From the NCBI GenBank assembly GCA_039680175.1, contig JBDKTO010000085.1, positions 1 through 54,409 on the forward strand: a DNA stretch of 54,409 nucleotides. The letters run 5' to 3'. Of the stretch, positions 914 to 39,322 are shown one piece after another. Both the position numbers and the translations under genes were made by a program. The notes under the pieces were generated by a model that was not told the DNA's origin, made no database searches, and saw nothing but the letters and a program-made list of their open reading frames with translations. Source of the stretch: Veillonellales bacterium (GTDB lineage Bacteria > Bacillota > Negativicutes > JAAYSF01). Numbering within the stretch: position 1 is the stretch's first letter; each line of letters begins with the position of its first letter.

Positions 914-2146
914 GGAAGCACTGAATAATAGCTGTTTTTACTATTTAAAAGGCAAAACACATTCGTTTTATTGCAAAATGATCTTTAACAGATGCTAGAA
1001 AACACCCTTTATCGCTCTGAAACCGGATCATCCGATTTCATGGCAGACTTTCCCCTCGGGTTCAACTTCCCACCGAGGCAGGTCTGCTCTTACGTCCTGC
1101 TATCAGTAGGTTGACAGAGGCGAATAGCATAAACAGGCGTGCTTCGTTTTTTTCAAGTCCCCTATACCGAGTCTTGCTGTAACCAAACAAGTTCTTGATC
1201 AGATGGAACGGGTGTTCCACAAGCGAACGGCGGATTTGGCATATTCCTCTGCCAACAACGCTTCTTTTTTCAAACTCTCTGCCATCTTACGCAGAGCTCT
1301 ACGCCGTTTGGCAATCAACCATGTGATGTTTTTCTCTTGTTTTTTTACTTCGTCTCGTTTTTCAATACCAGTATAGCCCGCATCCGCATAGACCAACTCT
1401 TCTTCTCCGTTCAACAGTTCTGTAGTCTTGACAATGTCCGCAACTTGGGCCGAGGTAGTCACCAGGGTATGAATTATACCACTGGCGGCATCTACCCCGA
1501 TATGAGCTTTCATCCCGAAGTGCCATTCATTGCTTTTTTTGTTTGGTGCATTTGCGGATCCCGTTTCTGGCGTTCGTTTTTTGTCGAGGTCGGCGCCTCA
1601 ATAATCGTGGCGTCAACAATGGTTCCTTCTTTCATGAAGATTCCTTGTTCTCCCAGACGTTGCTGCAGTTCTTCAAACATTTGTTTCGGCAGATGGTGTT
1701 TTTCCAACAGATGGCGGAATTTCAGCAGTGTTGTGGCATCCGGTACGGATTCATGCGATAGGTCAATTCGACTAAATTGACGCAGGGATTGGCTGTCATA
1801 AACAGCGTCTTCCATTGCTTCATCCGATAAATTGTACCAGGACTGGAGTAGATATAAACGTAACATTCGTTCACAGCCAATCGGCGGACGTCCCCGCTTT
1901 CCTTTAGGATAATGGGGCTCAATGAGTGCCACCCATTCTTTCCAAGGAACCAGGGTTTCCATTTTTTCCAGGAATACATCTCGCCGAGTTTGCTTTTTCT
2001 TGTGGCTGTATTCCCACTCGCTAAACGATGTCTGCTTTTCCATTGATGATCCTCCCATGTCAATCCTTCGCTCTTTTTGCTATTACATGTATTCGACATG
2101 GATCATCAGTTTTCCTATAATTGGAAATGATTAAATCAGTGTTTCC
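914..2146. mobile_element. IS5-family insertion sequence with CTAG flanks
   Basis: Terminal inverted repeats match at 12 of 15 positions: GGAAGCACTGAATAA at 914 and, read on the other strand from 2146, GGAAACACTGATTTA. Both ends are flanked by CTAG (910-913 and 2147-2150), consistent with a 4-base target duplication, although the palindrome leaves the exact boundary uncertain by one base. The element is about 1.23 kb, carries one transposase reading frame on the minus strand, and interrupts or abuts the group II intron maturase remnant. Confidence 0.8.
1062..2043 (-). pseudogene. IS5-family DDE transposase, two frameshifts
   Basis: Start ATG 2043 has a GGAGG site 7 bases upstream (MEKQTSFSEWEYSHKKKQ). 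The N-terminal part carries RQFSRIDLSHESVPDATTLL and the first catalytic Asp (IVDATIIEAP). The frame shifts by -1 at an A7 run (complement of 1534-1540), after which KAHIGVDAASG and the second Asp (YADAGYTGIEKR) follow. Near 1219-1225 a second shift separates SAVR from LVEHPFHLIKNLFGY, which holds the catalytic Glu region and runs to a TGA at 1064-1062. The first shift could be programmed on the slippery run. The second has no such signal, so the copy is probably inactive. Confidence 0.88.
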
Positions 2147-23354: not shown

Positions 23355-24050
23355 CTAAATTTTGAATATTCCTTCCTGCAAAGAAAATTTTTCATTCCAC
23401 TTCACCGAATAAATTCCGTCAATCATCATCAGGCTGGATGTCATTCCATTTGTATTCGCTTCTTCAGGCAGCCGCAAGGCTATCGATAAAAGCAAATGCT
23501 GATTGCTCTCCTCCTCAATCCGGATGTCCTGAATGCTGATTCCCGAACTGCCAAAATAGCCGCAAATCTTGCCAATCTGTCCCGGTTGGTCAATCGCATC
23601 AATGCTGACCATCATCACGCCGTCAATATGAACGGCCTTCTCAAACCGCTGCAGCATAGTCAGGGTTAAAAATACCAGCACAGTAGCAAATAAGGCGCTG
23701 AAATAATAACCGCTGCCTACAGCCAGCCCCACTCCGGAAACGACCCATAAGCTGGCTGCGGTAGTCAACCCCTTTATCGTCGCCCCTTCCTTCATAATGG
23801 TCCCGGCACCAAGAAAGCCAATACCGCTGACCACCTGCGCCGCCAAACGGGTTGGATCCGCATTTGTCAAGCCCTGTACCGTATGGTAAATATTAATGGA
23901 CAAAACCATGATCAGGCAGGAACCGATGCAGACAAGCACATGCGTTCTCAGCCCGGCAGACTTGTTACAAGCCTGCCGTTCATAGCCGATCAAGCCGCCT
24001 AACAATAATGCAACCACCAGCCGGATAAAAACATCAATGTCCGCAATCAA
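23355..24050 (-). CDS. mgtC: MgtC/SapB family membrane protein, paralogue 1
   Basis: It is about 231 aa. Four to five N-terminal helices carry the MgtC core (GGLIGYERQACNKSAGLRTH, GIGFLGAGTIMKEG, IKGLTTAASLWVVSGVGLA), followed by a C-terminal ACT-like domain (about 145-225). MgtC proteins inhibit F-type ATP synthase or support survival at low Mg2+; the role here is unknown. TTG 24050 is preferred since GGGGGGAG precedes it and the resulting MIADID matches the start of the second paralogue (MIADWE). A 31-aa membrane peptide gene lies just upstream. Confidence 0.92.
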   Translation of the reverse strand: MIADIDVFIRLVVALLLGGLIGYERQACNKSAGLRTHVLVCIGSCLIMVLSINIYHTVQGLTNADPTRLAAQVVSGIGFLGAGTIMKEGATIKGLTTAASLWVVSGVGLAVGSGYYFSALFATVLVFLTLTMLQRFEKAVHIDGVMMVSIDAIDQPGQIGKICGYFGSSGISIQDIRIEEESNQHLLLSIALRLPEEANTNGMTSSLMMIDGIYSVKWNEKFSLQEGIFKI

Positions 24051-24109
24051 GTTTCTCCCCCCATCCTCTTGCATCAACAGGCCGTCGCCATCGCCGCTTA
24101 TTCCGCGCC

Positions 24110-25049: not shown

Positions 25050-25718
25050 CTAATCAATTAAACAGTCTTTTTTTACACTCATGACTCCATTCAGCTGAGA
25101 TAAATCGGCAATTAGTTTTTCCTGATTTACTTCCCGCCGGAACCGCAATGCAAAAGTAACAACCAGCAAATGCTCCTGTTCCTCAATTTTGATGTCCCGA
25201 ATACTGCCGCCGGCTTCTCCCAAAGCAACACTGATCAAACCCAGCTGACCGGGAGTATCAATCGTTATCACCGTTAAACTAAAAGCCCGGTCACTGCACA
25301 TTCTATGTTCCATCTTCGCTAAAATTGTCAGGGTAACAAACACCAATAAGGTTGTGGCCAGAGCGCTGGTATAATAGCCGCTGCCTACAGCAAGGCCAAC
25401 CCCGGATACTACCCACAAACTGGCGGCGGTGGTCAGTCCTTTGATTGTCGGTCCTTCCTTTAATATACTGCCGGCGCCTAAAAATCCAATGCCGCTGACT
25501 ACCTGGGCAGCCAGACGGGTAGGATCGGCGTTGGTTTGCCCCTGCACCGACTGATAAATGTTTATCGAGAGTACCATAATCAGGCAGGAACCTACGGCAA
25601 CCAGAATGTGAGTCCGCAATCCGGCCGACTTATGATGGGACTGACGCTCGTAACCGATTACTCCGGCCAATACAGCGGCAGCCACCAGCCGCAAGGCAAT
25701 CTCCCAGTCCGCTATCAT
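25050..25718 (-). CDS. mgtC: MgtC/SapB family membrane protein, paralogue 2
   Basis: The 222-aa protein shows the same architecture as the paralogue at 23355: membrane core with GVIGYERQSHHKSAGLRTH, GIGFLGAGSILKEGPTIKG and ASLWVVSGVGLAVGSGYY, then an ACT-like C-terminal domain. The two are nearly identical through the membrane core and diverge after about residue 125, suggesting a local duplication with different regulatory domains. It lies 67 bases after rpoN and 65 bases before glpP, so rpoN-mgtC-glpP could be one transcript. Confidence 0.93.
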   Translation of the reverse strand: MIADWEIALRLVAAAVLAGVIGYERQSHHKSAGLRTHILVAVGSCLIMVLSINIYQSVQGQTNADPTRLAAQVVSGIGFLGAGSILKEGPTIKGLTTAASLWVVSGVGLAVGSGYYTSALATTLLVFVTLTILAKMEHRMCSDRAFSLTVITIDTPGQLGLISVALGEAGGSIRDIKIEEQEHLLVVTFALRFRREVNQEKLIADLSQLNGVMSVKKDCLID

Positions 25719-25785: not shown

Positions 25786-27156
25786 TCAGTATCTTTTTCG
25801 TCTGCTTGACGCGGCAATTCCCAATTCTTCCCTGTACTTTGTCACCGTGCGGCGGCAAATCCCAATCCCCCGCTCCTGCAGTATATTGCTGATATGCTGG
25901 TCACTAAGCGGCGCAGTCGCGTCTTCGCCGGTAATCAACTGCTTAATTTCCTGTTTCACATTGGATGCGGCAATATCTTCACCGGCCGTTCCCGACACAC
26001 CGGCAGAAAAAAAGGAACGCAAGCTAACCAAGCCATAGGGAGTGGCCGCATATTTATTGGCCGTCGCCCGGCTCACCGTTGACTCGTGAATTCCCAGACG
26101 ATCCGCCACTGTTTTCATAACCAGGGGCCGTAAATATTTCGGTCCGTAATCGAAAAAGCTGCGCTGTAAATCAACAATGGCCTGCGTAACATTATAAAGC
26201 GTGCGCCGCCGCTGTTCAATGCTTTTGACTACCCAAAGAGCGGCTTGCAGCCGTCCTTCCACATACTTCCGGGCCTCCGGATTTCCTTCCCGGGCCAGAT
26301 TGCGGTAGCTGGAACTGATGGTAAGCCGCGGCACCATTTGATCATTCACGCTGATGACATAATCATCTTCCCGCCGCTCAATACTCACATCAGGCAATAT
26401 ATAATCAAGCCGTCCCCGACCGAAAGCCTGACCCGGCTTCGGATTCAGTCTTTTGATAATGTCCACTGCCTGCTGCACTTCCCTCAGGGAGCACTGCAAT
26501 GCTGCTGCGATTCCTTTTAGGCTGCCTTTCGCCAAGTCCGGCAAATGATCCGACACAATACTCTGAACCAGCTTGCTGTCAATTTCCCGCTGCTGCAGCT
26601 GAATTGTCAGACACTCTTTTAGATTCCGGGCGCCAACACCCTCCGGATCAAATTTTTGAATCATGGCTAAGGCGTTTTCAACTACTGTCGAAGAAGCTCC
26701 TGTTATTTTTTTAATCTCATCCACCGTTCCGCAAAGATAGCCATTATCATCAATACAGCCTATCAGGTAGCGGCCGACAGCCTTTATTTTCCCATCCGCC
26801 GTTGCTAAATCAAGCTGAAGTTCCAAATGTTCATGCAGAGTAATCGTGCTGGCGGCAAAGGTTTCAAATGTGGCTTTGTCCTCGTTTCTCCGTATGGAAT
26901 AGTCCGTCCCCCCGCCTGCCAGATAATCGGTAAATTCCCCATAATCATTGGCATCATTACTGCTATCTTCTGTTGGCTGCTCTTCCGATAGCTCCGGCTG
27001 CCGTTCTTCGATATCCAGTAATGGATTCTCCCGCATTTCCTCTTCGACCATAGCCGCCAGTTCCAGTGAAGAAAGTTGCAAAATGGCAATGGCTTGACGT
27101 AATTGAGGTGTCATAACCAATTTTTGCTGCATTTCTAATTTCAGACCACAGTCCAT
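25786..27156 (-). CDS. rpoN: RNA polymerase sigma-54 factor
   Basis: At 456 aa it has a glutamine-rich activator-interacting region I (KLEMQQKLVMTPQLRQAIAI, 6-25; MRENPLLDIEE). The core-binding domain follows (about 110-290: CTVDEIKKITG, FDPEGVGARNLKECL, LNPKPG). The helix-turn-helix is MKTVADRLGIHESTVSRA, and the C-terminal RpoN box is RRTVTKYREELG (about 434-445). It directs transcription from -24/-12 promoters with enhancer-binding activators. None of those activators is encoded here. Confidence 0.97.
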   Translation of the reverse strand: MDCGLKLEMQQKLVMTPQLRQAIAILQLSSLELAAMVEEEMRENPLLDIEERQPELSEEQPTEDSSNDANDYGEFTDYLAGGGTDYSIRRNEDKATFETFAASTITLHEHLELQLDLATADGKIKAVGRYLIGCIDDNGYLCGTVDEIKKITGASSTVVENALAMIQKFDPEGVGARNLKECLTIQLQQREIDSKLVQSIVSDHLPDLAKGSLKGIAAALQCSLREVQQAVDIIKRLNPKPGQAFGRGRLDYILPDVSIERREDDYVISVNDQMVPRLTISSSYRNLAREGNPEARKYVEGRLQAALWVVKSIEQRRRTLYNVTQAIVDLQRSFFDYGPKYLRPLVMKTVADRLGIHESTVSRATANKYAATPYGLVSLRSFFSAGVSGTAGEDIAASNVKQEIKQLITGEDATAPLSDQHISNILQERGIGICRRTVTKYREELGIAASSRRKRY

Positions 27157-27230: not shown

Positions 27231-28241
27231 TTAACAAATTCGCGGCAACTGAGCCCCCGTCAGCATATCCAGCAGGCGGACTCCGCCAATGGCTGTAGAA
27301 AGCCCAACCTGTCCCGGCCGCTGCCCAATTACCGAGCCGATGACGCAAGCCTGCCGCCCATAAGGATGTCCGTGCATAATCTCCAATATCTGAGACGAAT
27401 ACTCCGGTTCAACAAATAGCAGCATTTTCCCTTCATTGGCCAGATAAAGCGGATCAAAGCCAAGAATATCACAAGTTGCTCTTACGGCAGCCTGTACCGG
27501 AATGCTTGTCTCCTCCAGCATAATGCCTACCTGGGACTGCTCCGCGATTTCGTTAAGAGCCGTCGCCAAGCCGCCCCGGGTCGGATCCCGCAACACCGCT
27601 GTCTGAGGCACACGGGACAAGATTTGCTCAACCAGCCCGTTTAAAGGAGCACAATCACTGACTATGGTTTCCGGCAAAACCAATCCATGCCGTTCACTCA
27701 TGACTGCAATAGAATGTTCCCCCAGTGTCCCACTTAAAATTATATCCTGTCCCGGCCTGGCCTGACAACCGGAAACATTTACGTTTTCCCTGATTTGCCC
27801 CACCCCGGCGGTATTAATGTAAATTCCGTCTACCGCTCCTTTTTCTACTACCTTGGTATCACCGGTCACGATCTGTACCCCGGCCCGGCTGGCAGTTTCC
27901 GCCATGGAATCAACAATCCGTTTCAAATCAACCAGGGGAAACCCTTCCTCCAATACGAAGGCGGCGCTCAGATAGAGAGGCACGGCGCCGGTCATGGCCA
28001 AATCATTGACTGTGCCGCAAACCGCTAGTTTGCCAATATTCCCGCCAGGAAAAAACAAGGGCTTCACCACATAAGAATCGGTGGTAAAGGCGAGTCCGGC
28101 CCCGTTAATGGAAAACCGGGCTCCGTCATGCATCTCCCCTAAAATTGGGTTGGCGAAAGCCGGCCACATTACCTGATTGACCAAATCATGGCTGAGCTTG
28201 CCGCCGCTGCCATGGGCTAACTGAATCCGTTCCATCGTCAT
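27231..28241 (-). CDS. hypE: Hydrogenase maturation protein HypE (carbamoyl dehydratase)
   Basis: The 336-aa PurM-like ATPase dehydrates the carbamoyl group on its C-terminal Cys to make the cyanide ligands of [NiFe] hydrogenase. It has the N-terminal MERIQLAHGSGGKLSHDLV, the ATP site region VVKPLFFPGGNIGKLAVCGTVNDLA (given in part), RDPTRGGLATALNEIA, and the essential terminal PRIC. ATG 28241 is chosen because it overlaps the hypD stop as ATGA; ATG 28250 is the alternative. Confidence 0.98.
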   Translation of the reverse strand: MTMERIQLAHGSGGKLSHDLVNQVMWPAFANPILGEMHDGARFSINGAGLAFTTDSYVVKPLFFPGGNIGKLAVCGTVNDLAMTGAVPLYLSAAFVLEEGFPLVDLKRIVDSMAETASRAGVQIVTGDTKVVEKGAVDGIYINTAGVGQIRENVNVSGCQARPGQDIILSGTLGEHSIAVMSERHGLVLPETIVSDCAPLNGLVEQILSRVPQTAVLRDPTRGGLATALNEIAEQSQVGIMLEETSIPVQAAVRATCDILGFDPLYLANEGKMLLFVEPEYSSQILEIMHGHPYGRQACVIGSVIGQRPGQVGLSTAIGGVRLLDMLTGAQLPRIC

Positions 28242-29335
28242 AACTGCCATCTCCCTGCTCCATATTTGTGCCAGGCGGCACACGTTCCTTCCACCGACAC
28301 CATACAGGAGCCGACCGGATGATCCGGTGTACAGGATCTGCCAAACAGCGGACAGGCTGTCGGTTTGATGCTGCCCTGGAGAATTTCACCGCAGCGGCAG
28401 CCCTTTGGCTCGCTGGCAGGTTCCACAACCACCGGCAGCTTGCTCCGGGAATCAAAAGCGGAATATCCAGGCCGCAATACAAGACCGGATGATGGAATCA
28501 TTCCCAATCCCCGCCAGACAGTATCAGCCGGCTGATAAACTTGTTCCAGTAATTTGCAGGCCGCCGGATTACCGGCAGCAGGCACAATTCGGCTGTACTG
28601 GTTTTCCAATTTCGCTGCGCCATCTTCCAGCTGCCGGACCAGCATATAAACCGACTGGAGAATATCCAGGGGATCAAAACCGGCAATCACCGCCGGAATG
28701 CCAAAATTCCGCTGCAAAAAACGGTAGGGCTCCACTCCGATGACAGCACTGACATGGCCGGGCAGCAAAAAACCATCCACCCTGACTCCCGGCCGGTCGA
28801 GGAGCGCCTGCAATGCCGGCGGCACCAGTTTATGGGAAGATAATACCGAAAAATTTTTTAAATCGGCCCGGGCTGCGGTAAGAACAGTGGCGGCGGCAGT
28901 AGGCGCCGTAGTCTCAAAACCAACTGCCAGGAAAATAACTTGCTTGTCGGGATAATCTCGGGCAATATCCAAACTTTCCAAAGGTGAATATACAATACGA
29001 ATATCCGCTCCGGCCGCCTTTTCCACCAGTAAGCTTGAGGACGATCCCGGCACCCGCAGCATATCGCCAAAAGTAGTGAGTATCACATTCGGCTGGCGGC
29101 TGTAAGCAATCGCCGTATCCAAATATTCATTCGGTGTTACGCAAACCGGACAACCGGGGCCGCTGACCAGCTCCACCCCCGCTGGCAGCAGTTGGCGAAT
29201 ACCGGCTTTAAATATGGCAACCGTATGCGTACCGCACACTTCCATTAACCGCAGCGGCCGTTTGACCCGATGACTGATTTCAGTCGTGAAAAAACCGGCA
29301 GTCCGCCGCTGCTCCTCAGGCGTCAAGCTCTGCAT
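28238..29335 (-). CDS. hypD: Hydrogenase maturation protein HypD
   Basis: The 365-aa protein is the scaffold on which the Fe(CN)2CO unit is assembled with HypC. It shows the conserved MEVCGTHTVAIFK (about 31-43), GPGCPVCVTP (about 59-68) and GFETTAPTAAA. The C-terminal cysteine cluster (RCGEILQG, CPLFGRSCTPDHPVGSC, about 310-350) holds the [4Fe-4S] centre. ATG 29335 has GGAG 10 bases upstream and overlaps the hypC end by 20 bases. It is translationally coupled to hypE by a 4-base overlap. Confidence 0.98.
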   Translation of the reverse strand: MQSLTPEEQRRTAGFFTTEISHRVKRPLRLMEVCGTHTVAIFKAGIRQLLPAGVELVSGPGCPVCVTPNEYLDTAIAYSRQPNVILTTFGDMLRVPGSSSSLLVEKAAGADIRIVYSPLESLDIARDYPDKQVIFLAVGFETTAPTAAATVLTAARADLKNFSVLSSHKLVPPALQALLDRPGVRVDGFLLPGHVSAVIGVEPYRFLQRNFGIPAVIAGFDPLDILQSVYMLVRQLEDGAAKLENQYSRIVPAAGNPAACKLLEQVYQPADTVWRGLGMIPSSGLVLRPGYSAFDSRSKLPVVVEPASEPKGCRCGEILQGSIKPTACPLFGRSCTPDHPVGSCMVSVEGTCAAWHKYGAGRWQL

Positions 29336-29546
29336 ATTTTTCCAGCTCCTTAAACAACTCCAGCGTTTTTTTGGCTTCTGCCTCATCCAACCGCTGGATG
29401 GCAAAGCCGGCATGGATTAAGACGAAATCCCCTGCTTGGGCCTCCGGCAGCAGCATCAGACTCACCTTTCGAGTCACGCCGCTTATATCCACCGTTGCCA
29501 GCATATCCTGCTTGTCGACGATCTTTCCCGGTACGGCTAAACACAT
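29316..29546 (-). CDS. hypC: Hydrogenase maturation chaperone HypC
   Basis: At 76 aa it begins with the invariant MCLAVPGKI, whose Cys 2 binds iron and the hydrogenase large subunit, and has the OB-fold GVTRKVSLMLLPEAQAGDFVLIHAGFAIQ, quoted only in outline. It carries Fe(CN)2CO from the HypDE complex to the hydrogenase precursor. GGAGAGTC precedes the ATG. The gene lies 2 bases after hypF. Confidence 0.98.
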   Translation of the reverse strand: MCLAVPGKIVDKQDMLATVDISGVTRKVSLMLLPEAQAGDFVLIHAGFAIQRLDEAEAKKTLELFKELEKYAELDA

Positions 29547-29548
29547 AT

Positions 29549-31819
29549 CTATCGACTCTCCTTTATCTTCTCGCCGGCGATTATCGCCTGCCCTAACGCC
29601 AGACCTCCGTCATTTGACGGCACCTGTCGGTGAATGTAAACCATTAATTTATTCTGTTGCAACATTCTGATTACTTGGTTCAGTAATGTCATATTCTGCC
29701 ATACACCGCCGCTTAAAGCAACCCGGCGGATTCCCGTATCCCGGCTGATTCTACCAACCATATCCACTACCGCCGCTGCCAGCGTAGTATGAAAAGCAGC
29801 AGCCAGCTCGCCGCTGCTTTTTCCCTGCCGCAATTTTTCAACCATTGCGGCAAAAACCGGACGAAAGTCCAGTATCTTCGGCTGTCCTTCCTGTATGTCG
29901 TAAGGCAGAACCGTTCCTGCCTGCCTTTCCGCTGCCTGTTCCAGTTCCACCGCTGCCTGTCCCTCATAATGAATAACGCTTCGCAGGCCAAGAAGAGCCG
30001 CCGCCGCGTCAAACAACCGTCCGACACCGGAGGATAAAGGCGCGTTGATTCCCTGTGCTGTCGCGCTGACCAGCAGTTCCCAGCCAGTCGGCAGTCTGCC
30101 GGCCAAAGGAAGCTGCCAGCGGACAAACTCCTTGCCGTACAATTCGTACAGCAGCCATACCGCCAGCCGCCATGGTTCCCGGATAGCCTTTTCTCCCCCC
30201 GGTAAATGCAGATAGCGGCAATGTCCCAGCCGGACAAATTGGCGGCAGTCCGCCAGCAAGAATTCCCCGCCCCACAAATTGCCATCCGTTCCGTACCCGG
30301 TACCGTCCAGAGCAACCCCAATCACAGGCTCGTTAATGCCGTATTCCGCCAATACGGAAACAATATGCGCGTGATGATGCTGAACACCGATTCCCGGTAG
30401 TTCCAGACTGAGGGCATATTTCGTAGCCAGATAATCGGGATGAAGATCATAGGCCACCATCTCCGGCCGTATGTCAAACAGCTTCTGATAATGAGCAATA
30501 GACTGACAGTAAGACTGATAGGTTGCCAAATTTTCCAAATCACCGATATGGGCACTTAAAAATGCCTGTCGTCCACGGGTTAAGCAAAACGTATTTTTCA
30601 GCTCACCGCCAACAGCCAAAACGCACGGATACTCGCCGGCCAGTGCCACCGGCGCCGGAGCAAAGCCCCGGCTGCGGCGCAGCATATACGGTTTGTCTTT
30701 TACCACACGCAGCACCGAATCATCCACCCGGCGGTAAATCATCCGATTATGCACCAGAAAATAATCGGCAATACCGAACAGTCTTTCCTTTGCATCCGCA
30801 TCCTCATATGCAATCGGTTCATCACTGCGATTACCGCTGGTCATCACCCATACGTCATCCGGCTGCAATAGCAGCCAATGAACCGGAGCATAGGGAAGCA
30901 TAACCCCAATACAGGAGCTGCCTGGTGCAATACCTGACGCCAGGCAATAACCGGTTCCTTTGATCAATAGGACAATCGGCCGCACCGTACCGGTCAACCA
31001 CTCCGACTCCGTCTGATTTACAAGGCACATCTGCCGCACCGCTGCCATACTGCCGCCCATAACGGCAAAAGGCTTGTCTTCCCGCACCTTACGCCGGCGC
31101 AGATTGTCCACCGCGAAGCCATTAAAAGCATCACAGGCCAGATGATAGCCGCCAATCCCCTTAATCGCCACGATAGCACCGGCTTGAATCAACTGCCGGA
31201 CCTGACCAAACAAATCCGCCTGCTCCTCCATCGGTTCTCCTGTTTTATCCAGCAGCCGGTAAGACGGACCGCACACCGGACAGGCATTGGGCTGGGCATG
31301 AAACCGCCGGTCTGCCGGATTGTTATACTCAGTCTGACAGTCCAGGCACATGGGGAATTCCGCCATCGTGGTTGATGCCCTGTCATACGGTACATCCTTA
31401 ATAATACTATAGCGAGGCCCGCAGTGAGTACAGTTAATAAAGGGATACCTAAAATGCCTGTCCCGGCTGTCCAGCAGTTCCCGCCGGCAATCCGGACAAG
31501 TGGCCACATCCGGTGATATAAGCACCGTACGCATTTCACCACTGCTGCTGGGACGGATAACAAATTTTCTTTCCCCCTGCAGCGGGCGTTCAGAAAATTC
31601 AACAGAGTCCAGTCTGGCCAAAGGCGGAAATTCCCCCTGCAGTCGGCGGTAAAACGAATTAACTTGCTCAGTCTGCCCTTCAACCTCAATTTCAACACCG
31701 GCCGAAGTATTCCATACCCAGCCGCCCAGAGCTAGGCTTCTGGCCAGATTAAAAACAAAGGGGCGGAAACCCACCCCCTGCACAATACCCGTGACCCTTA
31801 TATTAAAACGTTTCAACAT
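29549..31819 (-). CDS. hypF: Carbamoyltransferase HypF
   Basis: The 756-aa multidomain enzyme activates carbamoyl phosphate and transfers the carbamoyl group to HypE. In order it has an acylphosphatase domain (GIVQGVGFRPFVFNLA), two zinc-finger motifs (CPDC and CTHC at about 108-134; CLDC and CPVC at about 158-183), and a YrdC-like domain (about 200-380). A Kae1/TobZ-like domain with HHHAH near 481 and GVALDGTGYGTDGNLWGGEF follows. All key residues look intact. It opens hypFCDE. hypA and hypB and any hydrogenase subunit genes are absent from the window. Confidence 0.98.
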   Translation of the reverse strand: MLKRFNIRVTGIVQGVGFRPFVFNLARSLALGGWVWNTSAGVEIEVEGQTEQVNSFYRRLQGEFPPLARLDSVEFSERPLQGERKFVIRPSSSGEMRTVLISPDVATCPDCRRELLDSRDRHFRYPFINCTHCGPRYSIIKDVPYDRASTTMAEFPMCLDCQTEYNNPADRRFHAQPNACPVCGPSYRLLDKTGEPMEEQADLFGQVRQLIQAGAIVAIKGIGGYHLACDAFNGFAVDNLRRRKVREDKPFAVMGGSMAAVRQMCLVNQTESEWLTGTVRPIVLLIKGTGYCLASGIAPGSSCIGVMLPYAPVHWLLLQPDDVWVMTSGNRSDEPIAYEDADAKERLFGIADYFLVHNRMIYRRVDDSVLRVVKDKPYMLRRSRGFAPAPVALAGEYPCVLAVGGELKNTFCLTRGRQAFLSAHIGDLENLATYQSYCQSIAHYQKLFDIRPEMVAYDLHPDYLATKYALSLELPGIGVQHHHAHIVSVLAEYGINEPVIGVALDGTGYGTDGNLWGGEFLLADCRQFVRLGHCRYLHLPGGEKAIREPWRLAVWLLYELYGKEFVRWQLPLAGRLPTGWELLVSATAQGINAPLSSGVGRLFDAAAALLGLRSVIHYEGQAAVELEQAAERQAGTVLPYDIQEGQPKILDFRPVFAAMVEKLRQGKSSGELAAAFHTTLAAAVVDMVGRISRDTGIRRVALSGGVWQNMTLLNQVIRMLQQNKLMVYIHRQVPSNDGGLALGQAIIAGEKIKESR

Positions 31820-31846
31820 CGCAATTCCTACTTTCGGGGATGCTTA

Positions 31847-33223
31847 TTACTTCCGCGCTTGTTCATGATTCTCCTGCCTAATCAACGCTAATTTCGCCTG
31901 AACCATCAAAGCGCATTCCAAGCGTTTCTTCTGCAGTTCACAACCGATTTTGTAGGGCTTGTAAATATCATTATTAAACAGCTGGGCATTGGCATGACAG
32001 CCGCCGCTGCAATAAAAGCGGGCCCAGCATTCCCGGCAGTCCGGTTTATTCAGCACATGAGCCTGACGAAATTTTTCCGGCATCTCCGGCCGCTGCACCC
32101 CGTCAAATACATTGCCCAAAAGATATTCTTCCCGACCGACAAACTGGTGGCAGGGATACAAATCTCCCGTCGGCGTTACTGCGAAATACTCGTGACCGGC
32201 ACCGCAGCCGCTTAACCGTTTGGCGACACAGGGACCGTTATTAATATCCACATTGAAATGAAAAAAATCAAAACCCCGTCCGGCCAGCTTGCGATCCAAA
32301 TACTCTTGCGCCAATTTTTCATATTCCGCAAACAATACCGGGAGATGTTCCTCTTGCAAAGCATAATCACAATCTTTCGCCACCACCGGCTCTACGGAAA
32401 GCTGAGAAAATCCCTGATCAGCCATATCCAGAACATCGGCGGCAAAATCCAGATTATAAGCCGTATAAGTTCCCCGCAGATAATAATTCTGATCATGCCG
32501 GGACTCGATTGTCCGTCTAATATTTTTCAGCACCCGGTCATAGGATCCCTGACCGCCGGCAAAAGGCCGCATTCTGTCATGGACTTCCCGCCGGCCATCG
32601 AGGCTGAGAACCAGACTGATATTGTTTTCGTTCAGATACGCCGTAACTTTCTCGCTGAGCAGTACTCCGTTCGTTGTCAGCGTCAGCTTGAAAATCTTGC
32701 CGGTTTCCTGTTCCCGTTTACGGACATACTGTACCACATGCTTAACAGTTTCCATATTCATCAGCGGTTCGCCGCCAAAGAAGTCGATCTCGCAATGCTG
32801 CCGGTGACCGCTATTTTCAATAATAAAATCAACTGCCCGCTGACCTACTTCTTTCGGCATCAGACCCCGGTCATGACCAAAATCGCCGGTTCCGGCAAAA
32901 CAATAACCGCAGCGCAGATTACAGTCATGAGCAATATGCAGACACAGGGACTTCACCAGCGGTTTGGCGCTGAAAGTAGGCGGTACAGTTAACACCGGAG
33001 CAAACAGTTCCTCTCTCTCGATCAGGCTGCCCAGCTCCGCCAAGGCTTCCCGCAAATCAGCCGGATTGTACCGGCCAGACAGCTTCCACAGCACTTCTTC
33101 CCCGTTGCTGCCGTCAAAGCTGTCCATGATATCGTATACCATTTTATCAATCACATGTACCGCACCGCTGTTCACATCCAGCAGAATATACATATTATTG
33201 ACATGAAATTTATGGATGTTCAT
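31847..33223 (-). CDS. SCIFF peptide radical SAM/SPASM maturase
   Basis: It is about 458 aa. An N-terminal leader-binding segment precedes the radical SAM motif CNLRCGYC (about 99-106, CX3CX2C, with the family Tyr-Cys). FFGGEPLMNMETVKH and the SPASM region follow: CGAGHEYFAVTPTGDLYPCH near 345 and CRECWARFYCSGGCHANAQ near 395, cysteines for two auxiliary clusters. It should install Cys-to-alpha-carbon thioether bonds in the peptide encoded just upstream. ATG 33223 follows AGGTG. It is 27 bases before hypF, so the two units may be co-transcribed. Confidence 0.95.
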   Translation of the reverse strand: MNIHKFHVNNMYILLDVNSGAVHVIDKMVYDIMDSFDGSNGEEVLWKLSGRYNPADLREALAELGSLIEREELFAPVLTVPPTFSAKPLVKSLCLHIAHDCNLRCGYCFAGTGDFGHDRGLMPKEVGQRAVDFIIENSGHRQHCEIDFFGGEPLMNMETVKHVVQYVRKREQETGKIFKLTLTTNGVLLSEKVTAYLNENNISLVLSLDGRREVHDRMRPFAGGQGSYDRVLKNIRRTIESRHDQNYYLRGTYTAYNLDFAADVLDMADQGFSQLSVEPVVAKDCDYALQEEHLPVLFAEYEKLAQEYLDRKLAGRGFDFFHFNVDINNGPCVAKRLSGCGAGHEYFAVTPTGDLYPCHQFVGREEYLLGNVFDGVQRPEMPEKFRQAHVLNKPDCRECWARFYCSGGCHANAQLFNNDIYKPYKIGCELQKKRLECALMVQAKLALIRQENHEQARK

Positions 33224-33257
33224 CTTTTTTTCACCTTTCCAACCCAGATAAAAATTA

Positions 33258-33289
33258 AGCCCCCTGCCGGAAACTTTCGGCAAGGGGCT
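33258..33289 (-). terminator. Attenuator-type hairpin between the SCIFF peptide and maturase genes
   Basis: On the minus strand AGCCCCTTGCCG pairs with CGGCAGGGGGCT, followed by TAATTTTTATC. Its position after the peptide stop suggests partial termination, so that precursor exceeds enzyme. Confidence 0.7.
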
Positions 33290-33300
33290 GTCCCCGCGGA

Positions 33301-33444
33301 CTACTGCTTTTGGCAGACCTGATTGCCAACGGTACACGAAGTTTTGCATGCCGACTGACAAGAAGCCTGACATTCGCCGCAGCCGCCCGTATGTACAGTT
33401 TTTTGCAAAGACGCTGTATTTACAGTAGTAATATGTTTCGCCAC
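33301..33444 (-). CDS. SCIFF ranthipeptide precursor (six cysteines in forty-five)
   Basis: GTG 33444 follows GGAGGGG by 5 bases and opens a 47-codon frame ending at TAG 33301. The product starts MAKHITTVNTASLQ, the recognisable SCIFF leader, and has six cysteines in GGCGECQASC, SACKTSC and GNQVC. These are spaced as in the nearly universal clostridial SCIFF family, whose cysteines are linked to downstream residues by the radical SAM maturase. The maturase gene follows 77 bases later after a leaky terminator. Mature function in the family is unsettled; roles in signalling have been proposed. Confidence 0.95.
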   Translation of the reverse strand: MAKHITTVNTASLQKTVHTGGCGECQASCQSACKTSCTVGNQVCQKQ

Positions 33445-33485
33445 AATAACCCCTCCTTGACAGCATATGTACTATTACTCTTTTT

Positions 33486-33514
33486 ATTTTAGCCGTTTTC
33501 CCCTCAGGAATCAA
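33486..33514 (-). promoter_or_regulatory. Promoter of the SCIFF unit
   Basis: TTGATT (33514-33509), 17 bases, TAAAAT (33491-33486) on the minus strand, about 42 bases before the peptide start codon. Confidence 0.65.
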
Positions 33515-33553
33515 CATCTATTCCGCGAAGGATGAGCATTTTTAGCCGAAAAT

Positions 33554-33586
33554 GCAAAAAAGAGTGTCCAGCACACTCTTTTTTGC
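33554..33586. terminator. Bidirectional hairpin upstream of the SCIFF promoter
   Basis: A 14-bp perfect stem (GCAAAAAAGAGTGT, loop CCAGC) has A6/T6 built into the arms, so it can terminate on either strand. It insulates the SCIFF unit from upstream transcription. Confidence 0.8.
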
Positions 33587-34104
33587 TCTTAGTAACCCAT
33601 AGAATGAATCTATTAAATTGGGAGGTCACTATCAGCTTTAAGCGCGTTTATACCCGATTGGGTTTATAAACGTCCCACAGGAACATCATTCGTCCCTGTA
33701 TATAGTATGTTTCGCCACGAATAAAAATATTCCTTTTAGCTTTGTTAAAAAAATCACTTTTATTTGTGAAAAAAATATCGAGTGCATAAGTAAAGCCGCT
33801 GACGCGTCTTTTCGCGCATGGTTTATGGCTCATAGCTCATGGCACCGGAGACTGGAACCGGGTAATGGGCACCGGGAAATGAAGAAAGGACGAAATTTTT
33901 TAAACCCGCAAGTAAAAAAATCGTTCAACGTTGGCTGAACGATTTTTTACTTGCGGCTACTTGCTAAAAAAAGTTCACTTTATCATTATCAAGAAAGATA
34001 AGGCGGCGCTGCTAAGATTGCTGCGCCGACCTCAACCGTAAAATAGTTCTTTACCCCCAGTTCCAAGTGCTAAGTGCCAAGTGCTTTACGCCATGAGCCA
34101 AAAA
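33587..34104. other. Repeat-rich 518-base spacer without a credible gene
   Basis: The AT-rich left half (33587-33800) contains an imperfect CGTTTATACCC/GGGTTTATAAACG dyad. The right half is bounded by two inverted copies of the genome repeat: ATGGCTCATAGCTCATGGCA at 33823-33842, and its mirror image with CCAAGTGCCAAGTGC-like heptamers at 34062-34112. Between them is the long hairpin at 33906-33955. A 61-codon minus-strand frame (33648-33833) starts inside the repeat with no ribosome site. Confidence 0.5.
33906..33955. terminator. Long hairpin, probable terminator
   Basis: A 21-bp stem (CCGCAAGTAAAAAA-TCGTTCA with one bulged A, loop 7) lies downstream of the secreted-protein gene. It has no clean T tail outside the stem, but T-rich arms. 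Confidence 0.55.
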
Positions 34105-35208
34105 CTATGAGCCATGAATTGCCGCAGCAAAATCAGGGGCAATTACCAGCTTCACCGGCAAATTGGAAGCTCCCGGCGGGCTGAAGGTCAGCCACAGGGA
34201 TTGTCCGCCGTCAAAAGCGCCGATAAAAGCGGCATCAGTTGACCCATGAACACCGAAGGACAACCGGTCGGAAGGTGTCGCCAGCACCGGCTGCTCCTGG
34301 TAACGGTATTTCACGCCCAGTCCACCGGCATATTCACCGCCCCGGGGATTGAGATAGCAAGATAATTTGTTGTCCAGGGCTGATGATGGAATAAACAGTT
34401 TGTACACTACGCCGTAATTGCCGTAGTTCAGCACCTGAGACCCATCGGTAGCATCCACGCCTCTCGCATACCGGTCAATTTTGTTATCGGCCAGGGTTAC
34501 TGCCACCATACCATCGTCTTTGGCATTATAAACATTAACCGGTACCAGCAGCCGGTCTTTATTGTCAAAAGTTCCCCGCAGCTTATATTGATCGGCCGGA
34601 AGCACCTTAGCCTGAGCCGCAAATTTTTCGATATCCTCATTCACCGGCAGCATGATGGTTTTAACCTTCACCGGCTGATCCGCCGAAAAATCATAAATTC
34701 CATTGACCAGCGCGTTGGGCTCCACAATGATACTGCTGAGACCGACTGCCAGTTCCGCCGTACCTTGAGGCGAGACTTCCACCAGATACAGATCGCCGCC
34801 CTTCAGATAAGCCATTTGGGCCGCTTTTCCCACTGCCAGGTAATCAAGCCCCGGACCGCCCAGACCATGCTGGGACACAGTGATATGAACCGGCTCGGTG
34901 CCGGTATTCTCCAATAAAACAACAATTTTCTTCGGCTTATCCGTACCATTCACATGATGAAAAAACAACCGGGCATCGCCCTTCACCGTATCCTGATACA
35001 TGATCCCGTCAGCCGTCACTGTTTCCGGACTGTCTGATAGCAGCAATTTACCGCCGTAACCGGAAGTTGTAACTGACCATTCCGGTAGTTTTAAAAAATC
35101 GTTTTTAGCAAATTGCTGACTGACAGCCCCGGCTTCGGCGTCCGGTGTTATGCCGGTCATAGTAACCACCAGTGCCACCAACGGCACTATGTAGCGTAAC
35201 CACTTCAT
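34105..35208 (-). CDS. Secreted protein of unknown function
   Basis: It is 367 aa with a clear signal peptide: basic MKWLR, hydrophobic stretch to about residue 20, probable cleavage after AEA (26). The mature part is beta-rich and Gly/Val-rich (HHVNGTDKPKKIVVLLENTG, VHITVSQHGLGGPGLDYL, LNYGNYGVVYKLFIP, LNPRGGEYAGGLGVKY), with no transmembrane segment and few cysteines. I recognise no family or catalytic motif. It lies alone between a deacetylase gene and a repeat-rich spacer, with 54 bases to the upstream gene, so it could be transcribed with the cell-wall deacetylase. An envelope role is a guess. Confidence 0.8.
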   Translation of the reverse strand: MKWLRYIVPLVALVVTMTGITPDAEAGAVSQQFAKNDFLKLPEWSVTTSGYGGKLLLSDSPETVTADGIMYQDTVKGDARLFFHHVNGTDKPKKIVVLLENTGTEPVHITVSQHGLGGPGLDYLAVGKAAQMAYLKGGDLYLVEVSPQGTAELAVGLSSIIVEPNALVNGIYDFSADQPVKVKTIMLPVNEDIEKFAAQAKVLPADQYKLRGTFDNKDRLLVPVNVYNAKDDGMVAVTLADNKIDRYARGVDATDGSQVLNYGNYGVVYKLFIPSSALDNKLSCYLNPRGGEYAGGLGVKYRYQEQPVLATPSDRLSFGVHGSTDAAFIGAFDGGQSLWLTFSPPGASNLPVKLVIAPDFAAAIHGS

Positions 35209-38419: not shown

Positions 38420-39322
38420 CTATAAAGAACCGCTGCACTCAGGACGAGCATCCACTATATTATGCTTAATATCCCGATGCTCAATATTGACTTTATACCC
38501 TTTGCTGCGCAAACCCTCGTAGATTTTATGAGCCACAAATACGGAGCGATGCAGTCCGCCGGTACAGCCAATAGCAATAATTAACTGGCTTTTTCCTTCC
38601 CTGATATAATTTGGCACCAAAAAGTCCACTAATCCCGCCAATTTTTCCATAAACTGCTGGGTAATCGGCCATTTCCAAATATAATCTCCCACTTCGGGTT
38701 CGATACCGCTTTTGCGCCGCAATGATTCCACATAAAAAGGGTTGGGCAAGAACCGCACATCGAAAACCATATCCGCATCCAGCGGCACACCGTATTTAAA
38801 ACCAAAGGATACCACTGTAATGGTCATCCGCTCCGTCTCTTTTTCACCGCCAAACAGCGCAATGATCTTCTCTTTCAGGTTGGCAGTAGATAAGTCCGAG
38901 GTGTCAATGATATGGGTAGCACGCCCCCGGACATGCTCCACCCGCTCCCGTTCCCGGGCAATACCCTCGCTGATCCGTCCATGAGGCGCCATCGGATGAC
39001 GCCGGCGGGTTTCCTTATAACGGCGAATCAGCGTCTCATCCGATGCCTCCAGGAACAGCATTTCATACATGTATCCCTGTTTTTCCATGTCTTCCAATAC
39101 CTGTACCAAGGTATCAAAAAACTCGCGTCCCCGGATGTCCACCACCAGTGCAATTTTACTGACCTGCCCGGCGGATTGGGAACATAACTCGGCAAATTTT
39201 GGAATCAGCGCCGGTGGCAGGTTATCCACGCAAAAGTACCCTAAATCCTCCATGGCCCGTACCACCTGGGTTTTACCCGCGCCCGACATTCCTGTAACAA
39301 TAACCAAACGAAAATTATCCAT
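38420..39322 (-). CDS. rapZ: RNase adapter/nucleotide-binding protein RapZ (YvcJ)
   Basis: It is 300 aa with Walker A TGMSGAGKTQVVRAMEDLGY near the N-terminus, followed by FCVDNLPPALIP and LFLEASDETLIRRYKETRR. The C-terminal domain has FGFKYGVPLDADMVFDVRFL and IAIGCTGGLHRSVFVAHKI. In E. coli RapZ guides RNase E to GlmZ; in Bacillus YvcJ is a nucleotide-binding protein linked to competence. It is first in the rapZ-yvcK-whiA unit, with a promoter 83 bases upstream. Confidence 0.97.
   Translation of the reverse strand: MDNFRLVIVTGMSGAGKTQVVRAMEDLGYFCVDNLPPALIPKFAELCSQSAGQVSKIALVVDIRGREFFDTLVQVLEDMEKQGYMYEMLFLEASDETLIRRYKETRRRHPMAPHGRISEGIARERERVEHVRGRATHIIDTSDLSTANLKEKIIALFGGEKETERMTITVVSFGFKYGVPLDADMVFDVRFLPNPFYVESLRRKSGIEPEVGDYIWKWPITQQFMEKLAGLVDFLVPNYIREGKSQLIIAIGCTGGLHRSVFVAHKIYEGLRSKGYKVNIEHRDIKHNIVDARPECSGSL

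Follow-up and report, generated by a model that had tools for sequence, protein, structure and literature searches.

A canonical SCIFF operon upstream of, and probably co-transcribed with, hypFCDE in a Veillonellales bacterium

INTRODUCTION

SCIFF is one of the most widespread modified peptides in anaerobic Bacillota. Its function is still debated, and a proposal of quorum sensing in solventogenic clostridia is cited in two papers (PMC8326336 and PMC8102284). The DNA considered here, 54,409 nucleotides of a Veillonellales contig (JBDKTO010000085.1, positions 1 to 54,409; 'the window'), raises the question in another setting, as its SCIFF genes lie immediately ahead of the hydrogenase maturation genes hypFCDE. 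Does this proximity tie the peptide to redox or hydrogen metabolism, as the first-pass annotation of the sequence suggested, or is it a matter of gene order? Our preferred answer, to which we give a probability of about 0.7, is that this is a canonical SCIFF operon upstream of, and probably co-transcribed with, hypFCDE, expressed through a partial terminator and sharing no function with its neighbours.

ORGANIZATION OF THE LOCUS

The gene order on the minus strand is rapZ, yvcK, whiA, a polysaccharide deacetylase gene, a gene for an uncharacterised protein, scfA, a hairpin, scfB, hypF, hypC, hypD, hypE and rpoN. The first three names (rapZ at 38420-39322) come from reading of the sequences and serve as landmarks only. 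Every part of the arrangement first proposed for this strand, a precursor gene, a hairpin with a T-run and a maturase gene ahead of hypFCDE, could be identified. The hyp genes all pass their curated cut-offs in a profile search: hypF, the carbamoyltransferase gene (29549-31819; TIGR00143, 798 bits), hypC, encoding a chaperone (29316-29546; TIGR00074), hypD (28238-29413; TIGR00075), whose mechanically assigned start overlaps hypC and may really lie later, and hypE (27231-28283; TIGR02124). The sigma-54 gene rpoN follows (25786-27156). The gap between scfB and the hypF start at 31819 is 27 bases (31820-31846), as originally noted; it contains no terminator and a promoter would not fit. A terminator-like match inside hypF (31758-31779) was dismissed as a coding coincidence, for it lies within codons of the acylphosphatase motif VGFRPFVFN.

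Upstream of scfA, positions 34105-35208 (minus strand) encode a secreted-looking protein of 367 aa without a Pfam or NCBIfam match. This uncharacterised gene lies directly upstream of scfA in most of the non-Veillonella Negativicutes loci examined, with about 41-65% identity, and its position there is roughly as stable as that of hypF. The long gap before scfA holds imperfect inverted repeats (33817-33843 and 34090-34118) built on ATGGCTCATAGCTCATGGC / GCCATGAGCCAAAAACTATGAGCCATG, with two further hairpins beside them (33554-33586 and 33906-33956). Heptanucleotide tandem repeats, (AAGTGCC)n, occur at 34059-34086 and on contigs C13, C18, C55, C117 and others, reaching some 16 units, or more, on C55; a reversed control pattern had no match. 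Elsewhere in the window, two MgtC/SapB-like paralogs (23355-24077 and 25050-25718), whose N-terminal halves closely resemble each other, flank a glpP-type antiterminator gene, and transposase pieces, apparently split over two frames, lie near one end (1199-2099, minus strand).

THE PRECURSOR AND ITS MATURASE

The scfA gene (33301-33444, minus strand) begins with GTG and encodes a peptide of 47 aa with six cysteines, where SCIFF precursors have six in about 45 residues. It scores 82.8 bits against TIGR03973 of NCBIfam (cut-off 50) and 83.7 bits against PF13165 of Pfam (cut-off 27), and no second SCIFF precursor was found in the source genome. In a set of 71 unique peptides drawn from both Negativicutes and Clostridia, the core GGCGECQxSCQSACKTSCTVGNQVC is near-invariant whether or not hyp genes are nearby, and the acceptor threonine positions for a Cys-Thr thioether are conserved. 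CteA of Clostridium thermocellum (PDB 5wgg/5why; reviewed in PMC8326336) belongs to the same precursor family, and its fourth cysteine and the threonines at +2 and +5 are spaced as they are here. The CteA/CteB locus differs from the present one in that hypFCDE follow scfAB here.

The maturase gene scfB (31847-33223, minus strand; ATG at 33223) starts 77 nt downstream of scfA and encodes a radical SAM/SPASM protein of 458 aa that scores 623.7 bits against TIGR03974 (cut-off 425). Residues 3-444 align with CteB (PDB 5wgg; 442 residues, 544 bits), including the CNLRCGYC motif and the C-terminal SPASM cysteines, for which there is also a Pfam SPASM match. The protein thus has the N-terminal leader-binding (RRE) region, the radical SAM CxxxCxxC motif and the SPASM cysteines of a SCIFF maturase. 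The gene is near-universal in the class, being present in 145 of 150 Negativicutes genomes.

A second TIGR03974-like maturase gene (581 bits) lies on contig C45 (C45:122317-123504, L002; L019:10318-11532), in an AT-rich setting with sufC/sufB-like genes on one side and a cation-efflux gene on the other. Its frame opens only at about model position 53-61, so that most of the leader-binding N-terminus is missing, and it is probably a decaying orphan. No precursor was found near the second maturase-like genes of the source genome and of some relatives; two relatives (L127 and L128) carry full-length orphan maturases, likewise with no precursor found. Second genes of this kind, lacking a nearby cysteine-rich peptide, resemble the ScfB-related orphan maturases of NF040492, but assignment to that family was rejected, as their scores of 492-527 bits are far under its 855-bit cut-off.

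THE HAIRPIN BETWEEN scfA AND scfB

The hairpin (33258-33289, minus strand) begins 11 nt past the scfA stop codon, has 12 pairs and is followed at once by the T-run TTAATTTTTAT. It is a conserved, covarying terminator-like structure beyond chance expectation, and this is the strongest new observation of the analysis. Nearly all relatives have it after scfA. A terminator detector was positive at this place for 76 of the 108 loci and for 2% of shuffles. Under a stricter rule 55 of 86 loci in Negativicutes and 36 of 45 in other Bacillota were positive (3% and 2% of the respective shuffles), and in most of the loci that failed the stem is clear and the T-run weaker. Across 111 relatives the median folding z was -3.95 for the hairpin region, with no comparable signal after scfB (-0.14) or before scfA (-0.27). 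In an alignment of 35 Negativicutes sequences, built from sequence alone and hence not fitted to the structure, 10 of the 12 stem pairs have changed on both sides and 90.5% of cells pair, falling to 50-62% when the partner is slid by one column. Cells changed on both sides numbered 48 against 15.6 in shuffles, although the aligned sequences are related and such counts are not probabilities. In R. flavefaciens and Veillonella a stem of unrelated sequence stands at the same place, which points to selection on structure. It matches no catalogued RNA: an Rfam scan of the window returned tmRNA only.

How the hairpin would act is a matter of weighing three readings. A terminator-like hairpin between the precursor and enzyme genes is the arrangement expected of a RiPP operon with a leaky terminator. 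In nisA/nisB, a partial terminator lies between the precursor and modification genes; there, as in scfA/scfB, an inverted repeat comes just after a small precursor gene whose product is needed in excess over the enzyme. The peptides and enzymes of the two systems are unrelated. For scfA/scfB what the sequence itself shows is a terminator-like hairpin, its leakiness being an inference of the first-pass annotation; termination after scfA is probably partial.

The structure might instead end all scfA transcripts, with scfB-hypFCDE served by another promoter, which might lie within scfA or scfB. Its terminator-like form would suit this, as would the 180-490 nt separating scfA from scfB in Veillonella and some others, where a promoter would fit. 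In the window, however, only about 35 nt lie between the T-run and the scfB start, too few for a promoter, and any promoter inside scfA would leave transcripts that must still cross the hairpin; we consider complete termination quite improbable. The other alternative, that the hairpin marks a site of RNA processing or shields the scfA mRNA at its 3' end and so gives the scfA and scfB parts unequal stability, draws on the conservation and covariation of the stem even where the T-run is weak. In L025-L029, for instance, the stem is kept and the T-run is degenerate (GGCAAGAGGCCCTATGACTG), so in some lineages protection or processing of mRNA may be a further role of the hairpin. As the main role of the structure this is unlikely, for a T-run is present in most loci and the stem-T geometry is typical of intrinsic terminators.

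A MODEL FOR EXPRESSION

The region before scfA (33445-33517, minus strand) contains a promoter-like TTGATT-17-TAAAAT (33514-33486) and a ribosome-binding site, AAGGAGGGG. The promoter-like element matches at 9 of 12 positions. Because such single scores are weak, the case for a promoter rests on recurrence: many relatives have TTGATT/TTGCTT-17-TAAAAT some 40-57 nt upstream of scfA, and AAGGAGGGG likewise recurs at a similar distance. With about 35 nt between hairpin and scfB and 27 nt between scfB and hypF, expression of scfB-hypFCDE would most simply require read-through from scfA, barring a promoter inside coding sequence.

From the compared sequences we infer the following course of events, from promoter use through partial termination and co-transcription to the thioether, as well as the absence of shared function. 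The promoter just before scfA would drive an abundant scfA message, and most transcripts would end at the hairpin directly after it. The fraction that reads through would yield less product, namely the maturase and, for Negativicutes, HypFCDE as well. ScfB would bind the ScfA leader by its N-terminal RRE and form a Cys-to-Thr thioether in ScfA, as CteB does with CteA. The hyp genes would be on the scfAB transcript by virtue of a gene order that was inherited and of housekeeping expression at a low level, rather than of any role of the peptide in hydrogenase maturation.

CONSERVATION OF THE NEIGHBOURHOOD

The adjacency of scfB and hypF has counterparts in relatives. Among 150 Negativicutes genomes, 107 have hypF; scfB and hypF are adjacent in 55, apart in 50, scfB is alone in 39, hypF alone in 2 and neither is present in 4, a tally from which a few weaker split scfB matches are left out of the scfB count. 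Some of the genomes are fragmented, so that the adjacency counts (hypF comes next after scfB, on its strand, in 55 of 105 genomes with both genes, and in one of these 1.7 kb lies between them) are lower bounds. A 56th case, the family member G002, was tallied as apart solely through a contig break, the scfB tail standing immediately ahead of hypF where contig C1 ends, and the number apart is accordingly 49-50. A short gap free of a terminator, as in the window, is usual: in 46 relatives with the adjacency the distance after scfB is 9-602 nt, mostly 16-60, and 43 of them lack a terminator (present in 3).

The 55 genomes are spread over 11 of 33 families. In the maturase tree, a quick tree with SH-aLRT support only, the adjacency appears in both branches of the deepest split observed, that between Veillonella and Sporomusa-type sequences, with at least eight changes of state. 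Ancestral adjacency in Negativicutes followed by repeated losses fits this distribution better than repeated gains would.

The order in Negativicutes is rapZ-yvcK-whiA-(deacetylase)-uncharacterised gene-scfA-scfB-(hypFCDE)-rpoN. At sites missing hypFCDE, the next gene after scfB is rpoN, as in several relatives, or cggR. Lucifera (L120) retains hypCDE alone downstream of scfB. In L121/L043 a degraded hypE fragment (...DILEIDPLYLANEGKTVVLVEPNYTDK) separates scfB from rpoN, which indicates that this site has lost its hyp genes and kept scfAB; in G068, a genome with such a remnant site, hypF is on another contig.

Outside the class the flanks, where visible, are different. Among 116 genomes of the phylum from outside the Negativicutes, none showed scfB next to hypF when positions were compared from printed coordinates. 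The setting beside secDF or queA-tgt that the first-pass annotation gave for clostridia was borne out, with queA-tgt-yajC-scfA-scfB-secD-secF whole in Alkalibacter (L109) and partial in L140, L141 and L149. These clostridial loci have scfA, hairpin and scfB in the same order as here, the hairpin included, but lie between queA-tgt-yajC and secD-secF instead of rapZ-yvcK-whiA and hypFCDE-rpoN.

IS THERE A LINK TO HYDROGEN METABOLISM?

The proposed tie of the peptide to redox or hydrogen metabolism fared less well. It would have the thioether peptide act in [NiFe]-hydrogenase maturation, or in hydrogen or redox sensing, with selection keeping the linkage. Its attractions are an ancient adjacency retained in 11 families, the short scfB-hypF gap with no terminator, the several genes for [NiFe]-hydrogenase large subunits in the source genome, and one independent hypCD neighbour outside the Negativicutes: in L166 (8728-9984 and 10866-12501) a HypC-HypD fusion follows a CO-dehydrogenase/CooC-like pair about 0.9 kb before scfAB. 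An accessory of hydrogenase maturation would, however, depend on the hyp genes for its presence, whereas scfB is found in 39 of the 43 genomes without hypF as well as in 105 of the 107 with it, some of the absences being incomplete assemblies. The genomes that keep the two genes apart, the equal conservation of the peptide core with and without hyp, the confinement of the adjacency to Negativicutes among the genomes sampled, and the intact scfAB beside the hypE scar, where the pair has survived hyp deletion, all argue in the same direction. A shared function of the SCIFF pair and hydrogenase maturation is unlikely, and the specific proposal of selection for such a role is most improbable.

Some selection on co-expression of scfB and hyp may nevertheless operate. 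If rearrangement is frequent, an adjacency that spans families and persists in no fewer than half of the genomes with both genes exceeds what drift alone would leave. It is a far bolder idea, and a highly doubtful one, that the peptide or its attenuator serves hydrogenase biogenesis in Negativicutes, the scfA hairpin setting HypFCDE levels by peptide demand or redox state; if true, it would give SCIFF its first concrete cellular pathway. A literature search for a link between SCIFF and hydrogenase, or between hypF and SPASM proteins, yielded only a reference-list match and a table listing neighbours of [NiFe]-hydrogenases, in which a generic entry for radical SAM/SPASM is not equated with SCIFF.

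IMPLICATIONS

The survey favours a housekeeping role for SCIFF that is independent of hydrogenase maturation. The conserved, covarying hairpin between precursor and maturase is a candidate for control of their stoichiometry. Our reading of the locus as a SCIFF operon that runs on into hypFCDE predicts that in many Negativicutes these genes are expressed behind a SCIFF attenuator. If so, polar effects of scfAB mutants could mimic a hydrogenase phenotype.
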